DNA of 34,262 nucleotides from a bacterium (lineage in GTDB: Archaea; Thermoplasmatota; Thermoplasmata; Lutacidiplasmatales; UBA184): NCBI GenBank assembly GCA_027309555.1, contig DAIDCO010000019.1, forward strand, positions 1 through 34,262. Direction: 5' to 3'. The translations under genes and the position numbers were made by a program. The notes under the pieces were generated by a model, which worked only from the letters and a program-made list of their open reading frames with translations, was not told the origin of the DNA and made no database searches. Positions 4,579-4,696 of this stretch are shown here, in pieces (position 1 is the stretch's first letter; every line of letters begins with the position of its first letter).

Positions 4579-4696
4579 GCCGAGGTGGCTCAGTCCGGTA
4601 CGGCGCGAGTCTGGAAAGCTCGTGGCGGAATACGCCTCGGGAGTTCAAACGCTGCGGACGGCCGAACCGTCGTGGCGGAGACTCTCCCCCTCGGCG
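4579..4696 (+). tRNA. tRNA-Ser(GGA) with an intron in the T-loop
   Basis: A complete class II cloverleaf can be drawn. The acceptor stem is GCCGAGG (4579-4585) pairing with CCTCGGC (4689-4695), with discriminator G4696. The D arm spans 4588-4604. The anticodon stem is 4606-4610 with 4618-4622, and the loop CTGGAAA carries anticodon GGA at 4613-4615. The long variable arm GGCG/CGCC (4624-4627 with 4633-4636) is expected for serine. The T stem is GGGAG (4639-4643) with CTCCC (4684-4688). The T-loop reads TTCAAA, then 33 extra bases, then T. Removing 4650-4682 gives the normal loop TTCAAAT and a mature length of 85 nt. CCA is not encoded. The anticodon loop has no canonical intron. Confidence 0.9.
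4650..4682 (+). other. tRNA-Ser T-loop intron (position 59/60)
   Basis: This 33-nt insertion is what prevents a normal T arm. It contains a hairpin GACGG-CCGAA-CCGTC (4657-4671). A relaxed bulge-helix-bulge can be drawn. The outer helix is the T stem, and a 3-nt bulge ACT (4681-4683) lies on the 3' side. The central helix is TTCA (4644-4647) against GGAG (4677-4680), with one G-U pair and one A-G mismatch. A 3-nt bulge AAC (4648-4650) lies on the 5' side, and an inner helix is formed by GCT with GGC. Cutting after the second base of each bulge excises exactly 4650-4682. The boundaries are inferred from the mature tRNA fold. Confidence 0.82.

Follow-up and report, generated by a model that had tools for sequence, protein, structure and literature searches.

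Position 59/60, in the T-loop, is listed among the non-canonical intron sites of archaeal tRNAs (PMC4090602; sources cited here by PMC number are drawn on in excerpt, and statements about them extend to those excerpts). Non-canonical introns have been described as nearly confined to Crenarchaeota; the same source names other phyla and three thermophilic methanogens of the Euryarchaeota as well (PMC3218864), and the tRNAscan-SE 2.0 paper names mostly Crenarchaeota and Thaumarchaeota (PMC8450103); its supplementary tables may already hold some Thermoplasmata T-loop introns as data. Reviews tie these introns to splicing endonucleases with special loops and state that euryarchaeal homodimers cut canonical sites only (PMC4090602, PMC4033280), and Korarchaeum has been called the sole archaeon pairing an alpha2 enzyme with non-canonical introns, its enzyme having a loop (PMC4033280). 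The alpha'2 enzymes of Archaeoglobus fulgidus and Thermoplasma are classed as narrow; with full-length pre-tRNA as substrate, the A. fulgidus enzyme nonetheless excised an intron at 37/38 that had a bulge-helix-loop motif (PMC6379350), and breadth was conferred on A. fulgidus EndA by a loop insertion (PMC12397907). Homodimers are able to cut bulge-helix-loop sites, and in yeast the homodimeric EndA of Ferroplasma excised a bulge-helix-bulge (BHB) intron, its bulges 2 and 3 nt long, that sat in the 7-nt loop of an mRNA hairpin (PMC8707768). In the open-licence literature that we searched, no text on T-loop introns in Thermoplasmata was found, and the word 'intron' is absent from the excerpted text of the Lutacidiplasmatales paper (PMC9287336).

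Here we analysed a window of 34,262 nt from the genome of a soil archaeon, in which an earlier note had placed a 33-nt intron at position 59/60 of a tRNA-Ser(GGA) gene. The note took the host to be Thermoplasmatota-like, which was borne out. This intron and its relatives share with the known 59/60 introns the position, a BHB-type junction, the occurrence of several per genome and the presence of two introns in some tRNAs (PMC4090602). The known examples are described mainly from Crenarchaeota, whereas here the host belongs to the Thermoplasmata, EndA is a single chain without a CSL/ASL loop and 59/60 is the dominant site. Introns of this kind are known, but the setting is unexpected: one dominant site, wide spread in a class and a loop-less single-chain enzyme.

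Results

A T-loop insertion in tRNA-Ser(GGA) best read as an intron

Direct reading of positions 4579-4696 confirmed a tRNA-Ser(GGA) gene with a 33-nt insertion at 59/60 (Table 1). Common tools passed over it: ARAGORN reported no tRNA in the window, the Rfam tRNA model (RF00005) found nothing there at its gathering threshold, and a relaxed Rfam search gave the gene 22.8 bits against a cut-off of 29, with the acceptor paired to the wrong 3' half. Excision of the 33 nt leaves the normal loop TTCAAAT, the same loop that four intronless orthologues possess. From the sequence of this gene alone, a cut one base later, leaving TTCAAAC, would also be conceivable; position 59/60 is favoured because of the four intronless orthologues and because T60 is constant in 50 of 50 orthologues, in contrast to the variable bases at either end of the intron. 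The earlier note had named a second intact tRNA-Ser(GGA) gene, together with lack of a spliced 85-nt RNA, as evidence for a pseudogene; a search with the 5' exon found none in this genome, of which the assembly covers about 90%. The insertion is best read as a real intron, judging from these comparisons of sequence.

Table 1. Parts of the interrupted tRNA-Ser(GGA) gene, numbered from the first letter of the window
Feature	Positions	Strand	Basis
5' exon of tRNA-Ser(GGA)	4579..4649	+	direct reading; 5' exon matches in family genomes
Acceptor 5' strand GCCGAGG	4579-4585	+	within 5' exon, read directly
D-arm, anticodon arm, variable arm	inside 4579..4649	+	parts of 5' exon
Anticodon GGA, 7-nt loop	4613-4615	+	read directly
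T-stem 5' strand GGGAG	4639-4643	+	read directly
T-loop nt 54-59 TTCAAA	4644-4649	+	end of 5' exon
33-nt intron, T-loop 59/60	4650..4682	+	present in 46/50 orthologues read, exactly absent in 4/50
3' exon of tRNA-Ser(GGA)	4683..4696	+	direct reading
T60	4683	+	first base of 3' exon
T-stem 3' strand CTCCC	4684-4688	+	read directly
Acceptor 3' strand CCTCGGC	4689-4695	+	read directly
Discriminator G	4696	+	last base of 3' exon

The 5' exon found a match in all 61 genomes of the family. Its best match reached at least 86% identity in 58 of them, and 100% in 27 of those 58 (own genome included); the best matches in the other three (G276, G293 and G143), at just 76-82% identity, perhaps belong to another serine tRNA. 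We read 50 of the 58 loci, comprising 30 supplied (own genome included) and 20 fetched, and all 50 parsed. As the earlier note had proposed looking for, the same intron recurs in related genomes: 46 of the 50 orthologues carry an intron of 31-33 nt and diverged sequence at 59/60, and it is exactly absent, leaving TTCAAAT, from four that all belong to one genus (G068, G048, G220 and G317). Over the 1035 pairs of the 46 intron-bearing orthologues, mean identity was 96.0% for exons versus 67.8% for introns, and in the 360 pairs with identical exons the introns were 70.4% identical. At the base of the intron hairpin (h'), where nt 2-5 oppose nt -7 to -10, standard pairs form in 30, 34, 33 and 34 of 34 distinct 33-nt introns, and the base is kept through compensatory exchanges in which, for instance, A-T replaces G-C or T-A replaces C-G; the invariably standard pair 3:-8, for example, is C-G in 30, T-A in three and T.G in one. 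Further in, nt 6-10 pair more poorly in a simple register (24, 18, 17, 13 and 3 of 34), with nt 11 at 34 of 34.

The proposed splice site is relaxed in tRNA-Ser(GGA) and pairs more fully in most T-loop introns counted

A cut at 59/60 would define two 3-nt bulges, one made of nt 58, 59 and intron nt 1 and the other of intron nt -2, -1 and nt 60, around a central helix in which exon nt 54-57 (UUCR) lie opposite intron nt -6 to -3. With the canonical 37/38 intron this arrangement has in common a 5-bp stem, a 7-nt loop and a cut between loop nt 6 and 7, and the four central pairs of the canonical intron recur in the majority of T-loop introns read from families other than f1, the family of our genome. 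The Ser(GGA) intron differs in lying in the T-arm, in using the conserved T-loop UUCR as its exon strand and in its relaxed centre. Here UUCA faces GGAG, giving U.G, U-A and C-G followed by an A.G mismatch (the earlier note had likewise called the motif relaxed), so that in place of the strict motif of 3-nt bulges and a 4-bp centre there are three of four pairs, one of them U.G, plus A.G. Since relaxed motifs are known among archaeal tRNA introns (PMC6379350), we filed it as a relaxed-motif intron.

Among the first 13 introns of this kind read in the genome, four pairs form in five (Arg(TCG), Asp, Gly, Lys and Gln), three pairs and A.G in seven, all with A57, and two pairs in Asn; the fourteenth, in tRNA-His, was read later and has four pairs, one of them U.G. 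For a wider comparison we assembled 79 introns from 28 genomes, omitting five of 84 candidates that showed no clean anticodon arm by the test used; the stricter filters of this set removed two of 37 class introns parsed earlier. At least three central pairs form in all 79 and four in 57, and in a larger set of 104 (all 84 candidates and 20 more) at least three form in 103 and all four in 80, a class-wide four-pair rate that is biased upward because model R1, with which part of the set was found, contains the central helix; R1 played no part in finding the 46 Ser(GGA) introns or the own introns other than His. In the 79 introns, registers shifted by 1-5 bases upstream or 1-4 downstream gave four pairs in 0 to 2, and those shifted by one base in none. 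One base upstream, at least three pairs still form in 51 of the 79, which counts against our preferred reading.

Nucleotides 57 and -6 covary: in the 104 introns G57 occurs with C-6 in 57 of 60 cases and A57 in 0 of 44 (Fisher 3.5e-26, uncorrected for relatedness). Opposite the 44 A57, position -6 is U in 24, G in 19 and A in one. Within family f1, 16 of 19 A57 introns have G at -6, as do 44 of the 46 Ser(GGA) introns, whereas U prevails at this position in other families.

Free folding of the Ser(GGA) T-arm with its intron produced a 6x6 internal loop and no central helix, which also counts against this reading; the fold, at -24.4 kcal/mol, was matched by only 10 of 500 intron shuffles. Minimum free energy folds of 84 T-arms contained all four central pairs in 46, three in one and none in 37, and four pairs were folded in 41 of the 49 T-arms with UUCG/CGAA or UUCA/UGAA. 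By predicted pairing, most introns of the set have four pairs, and the Ser(GGA) intron is one of its relaxed-motif members.

One site is filled in 14 tRNA genes of the genome

The assembly (G000; 2.04 Mb, 114 contigs, estimated completeness 90.3%) gave 41 matches to RF00005, which were read singly and by a script that requires T-stem and acceptor pairing and is blind to intron sequence. We arrived at 43 tRNA genes in total, including His and Pro(CGG) (the latter by eye) found through R1 and Leu(TAG) found in the flank of another match. Two candidates were rejected: the RF00005 match at C30:11378 reads as no tRNA, and a Pro(GGG) prediction by ARAGORN in locus L021 did not read as one either. 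No gene for Pro(GGG), Pro(TGG) or Gly(CCC) was detected in this assembly.

Fourteen of the 43 detected genes carry an insertion at 59/60, 26-38 nt long: Ser(GGA), Ser(CGA), Ser(GCT), Asn, Asp, His, Arg(TCT), Arg(TCG), Glu(CTC), Ala(GGC), Gln(CTG), Gly(TCC), Lys(TTT) and Leu(TAG). The only Asn, Asp and His genes detected are among them. Fourteen genes with the same site, together with presence and absence among orthologues, led us to reject a chance insertion. Six more genes have introns elsewhere, in the D-loop (iMet and Arg(GCG)) or in the anticodon loop (Met, Tyr, Trp and Leu(TAA)), so that 20 of the 43 contain some intron. With the finders tried (ARAGORN and Rfam), tRNA counts for such genomes can come out too low.

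T-loop introns occur in most sampled families of the Thermoplasmata

The earlier note had regarded a T-loop intron as out of place in Thermoplasmatota, where introns would normally sit at 37/38. This expectation did not hold: reading turned up T-loop introns in 25 of the 33 Thermoplasmata families that were sampled. We built R1 from eight own tRNAs with T-loop introns and ran it on 300 class genomes (E<=1e-10, 13 candidates scored per genome). It gave 6-10 matches in each of the 62 family-f1 genomes listed; of the other 238 genomes, 156 had 1-5 matches and 82 had none. Eleven and 12 T-loop introns were read in two genomes of the same genus (G001 and G018), and three and nine in two of the same order (G027 and G026). 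A further 40 class loci, picked for match length, yielded 37 that parsed as T-loop introns, one intact gene (L198) and two with a T-loop intron by eye and one T-stem mismatch (L189 and L195); another 20 class loci all parsed as T-loop introns. Among the loci read, tRNA-Arg(TCT) has a T-loop intron in five genomes of f8, probably a family of cultured methanogens.

In G026 the introns are 13-14 nt long in eight tRNAs (L141, L155-L160 and L162), which makes them very small BHB introns, and 26 nt in one. Each of its nine tRNAs seems to contain a second intron, because their bodies measure 60-80 nt instead of 46-50.

No T-loop intron was found in families f7, f15, f19, f24, f26, f27 and f31, in which R1 matches were 71-75 nt long, at stringent thresholds and with 1-3 genomes per family; two longer R1 matches in G039 are anticodon-loop introns. 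For f10, R1 had no match in one 74%-complete genome. We also compared a string pattern of the motif with a reversed-pattern control, summing the tallies by hand. Of the T-loop introns already known, the pattern recovers 36 of 47 from other families and just 6 of 37 from f1. It gave 40 matches in 24 genomes of f1 and 24 in 39 genomes of f8, with none in either control, and 9 matches in 47 genomes of f15, f19, f27 and f31 together, which we ascribe to chance because the control gave 8. Outside the class, f35, f49 and f58 show string matches resembling T-loop introns, several per genome in many genomes, against 0 or 1 in the control.

A single-chain EndA without a specificity loop

Searching the assembly with PF01974 revealed one EndA gene, encoding a single chain with two domains, where the earlier note had proposed to look for a heterotetramer or epsilon-type enzyme. 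Among 41 genomes PF01974 matched in 36; the five without a match are incomplete, and some genes were cut by contig ends. Nineteen near-complete genomes, own included, have one EndA locus each, with two domains in 18; the second domain in G039 scored only 19.8 bits. A second EndA subunit was rejected on the strength of the single two-domain gene and of one locus in each of these 19 genomes. The incomplete relative G011 has an extra EndA fragment at a contig edge (C108:52-288), which may be a duplicate, a contaminant or a real second gene. One RtcB gene was found in the assembly.

Alignment to A. fulgidus EndA (2gjw) places the catalytic Tyr, His and Lys as expected; in own numbering they are Y295, H303 and K334, they lie in the second domain and they are invariant in 16 EndA of the class. 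We take Y246 and H257 to be the A. fulgidus counterparts of Tyr and His. One chain with two EndA domains and the catalytic Tyr, His and Lys in one of them is the alpha'2 arrangement. In alignments to 2gjw and to the chimera 3p1y, our EndA has no CSL/ASL-type insertion where 3p1y has one, nor do the 16 aligned class EndA at that position, and no ARMAN or crenarchaeal loop was seen in our EndA. An AlphaFold2 model of the single chain had a mean pLDDT of 91.7, and in a Foldseek search with this model M. kandleri 5x89 ranked highest (TM 0.91 by target), followed by 2gjw and 3p1y. The closest EndA among named loci come from 'Thermoplasmata archaeon' metagenome assemblies.

The alpha'2 enzymes of A. 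fulgidus (2gjw) and Thermoplasma acidophilum (2ohc) likewise have two domains per chain, catalytic residues in the second and no CSL/ASL. At about 357 aa, versus 289 aa in Thermoplasma (PMC6379350), our EndA has a fuller N-terminal domain and is nearest to the M. kandleri subunit fusion 5x89 in sequence and fold. Korarchaeum cryptofilum resembles our archaeon in having an alpha2-type EndA and non-canonical introns, but its enzyme is reported to have a specific loop (PMC4033280), which ours lacks.

In the searched genomes of families f15, f19, f27 and f31 the N-terminal EndA domain match is absent or below 20 bits, in stop-to-stop frames of 239-388 aa; the frames of the other families with EndA span 334-598 aa (f24 gave no EndA and was omitted). 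T-loop introns were read in 0 of these 4 reduced-N-terminus families versus 25 of the 28 others (Fisher 0.001, a post hoc test uncorrected for descent, on families that are not independent). Family f6 speaks against a simple reading of domain scores, having weak N-terminal matches (17.5, 25.1 and 27 bits) yet T-loop introns.

Discussion

The gene very probably encodes a functional tRNA-Ser(GGA) with a BHB-type intron at 59/60, spliced by EndA and RtcB in the manner proposed here. The proposal builds on what can be read from the genomes, namely the position of the intron, its systemic recurrence, its presence or absence among orthologues, the covariation, and single genes for EndA and RtcB; cleavage, ligation and tolerance of the A.G mismatch are what we infer. 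The Ser(GGA) intron would be one of a group of T-loop introns that together occupy this site in roughly one third of the tRNA genes detected. Before splicing, the T-stem would extend into the short central helix of exon nt 54-57 and intron nt -6 to -3, flanked by the two 3-nt bulges, and the hairpin of the intron itself would close the far side, thereby copying the 37/38 geometry of the anticodon loop onto the other 7-nt loop. The single detected EndA would cut both bulges, tolerating the A.G mismatch, and RtcB would join the exons and restore TTCAAAT. Since the intron would block the elbow between D-loop and T-loop, splicing presumably must precede final folding; that M. kandleri trims the ends before intron removal (PMC3695527) opposes the guess of early T-loop splicing. 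The result with Ferroplasma EndA (PMC8707768) makes T-loop cutting by such an enzyme plausible, whereas the narrow label of the A. fulgidus and Thermoplasma alpha'2 enzymes predicts poor cutting of the A57/G-6 class and counts against the proposal.

The insertion disrupts the most conserved loop of the tRNA, and ARAGORN as well as Rfam at cut-off missed the gene, as might be expected of a decaying copy whose T-loop was destroyed and whose tRNA is dead. We consider this highly improbable. A redundant copy free of constraint would fit such decay, whereas no intact second Ser(GGA) was detected, the 5' exon is conserved throughout most of the family (58 of 61 genomes at 86% identity or more), all 46 intron-bearing orthologues keep the intron at 31-33 nt, and the sole detected Asn, Asp and His genes bear the same insertion. 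Equally hard to credit is an insertion retained after maturation as an enlarged T-loop of the tRNA: splicing is itself deduced, and the insert folds as a stable hairpin on the T-stem, but the elbow would be blocked, exons and introns diverge to sharply different degrees, precisely intronless orthologues exist and the intron end is complementary to exon nt 54-57 in register.

How permissive the enzyme must be is a related question, for which the earlier note had suggested broad specificity. A heterotetramer, an epsilon-type enzyme or an alpha'2 enzyme with a CSL/ASL-like loop would permit non-canonical introns, and we judge it unlikely that one is at work here. Many A57 introns of family f1 have G-6 and just three central pairs (G-6 in 44 of 46 Ser(GGA) and 19 of 44 A57 introns), production of these tRNAs would require such relaxed sites to be cut, and the roughly 10% of the genome missing from the assembly could hide a second subunit. 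The architecture gives a broad enzyme no support, however, because EndA is a single two-domain chain without a crenarchaeal or ARMAN loop, with one PF01974 locus in each of the 19 near-complete genomes and no insertion at the 3p1y loop position in our EndA or the 16 aligned ones. Most of the T-loop introns read outside f1 need no broad enzyme, because they have four central pairs; what stands of the suggestion is that EndA must show some tolerance for Ser(GGA), whose centre is relaxed to three pairs and A.G.

With splicing by the single-chain EndA as the preferred reading, many genomes of one class combine a loop-less enzyme with T-loop introns, against the rule given in reviews, and the proposed co-evolution of intron and enzyme becomes directly testable. 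We tentatively suggest, as possible rather than probable, that the requirement for CSL/ASL fails for much of the class: T-loop introns, some of them relaxed, would be served by a single-chain EndA that lacks the loop and has a fuller N-terminal pseudo-domain, the reduced-N-terminus families f15, f19, f27 and f31 would show none accordingly, and an intact pseudo-domain may determine access to the T-loop.

Further introns in tRNA genes of the class

By eye, D-loop introns were seen in the initiator tRNA-Met and tRNA-Arg(GCG) of our genome (L033 and L034). In many families tRNA-Lys(TTT) combines a D-loop insertion with a T-loop intron (L038 on contig C37 of our genome, L133, L151, L161, L140 and L180, and also L256, L258, L263, L271 and L273), and this may possibly be an old double-intron gene. 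Archaeal tRNA-Trp introns can nest a C/D guide RNA (PMC4090602); the tRNA-Trp intron of our genome (L025, contig C59) is about 87 nt long.
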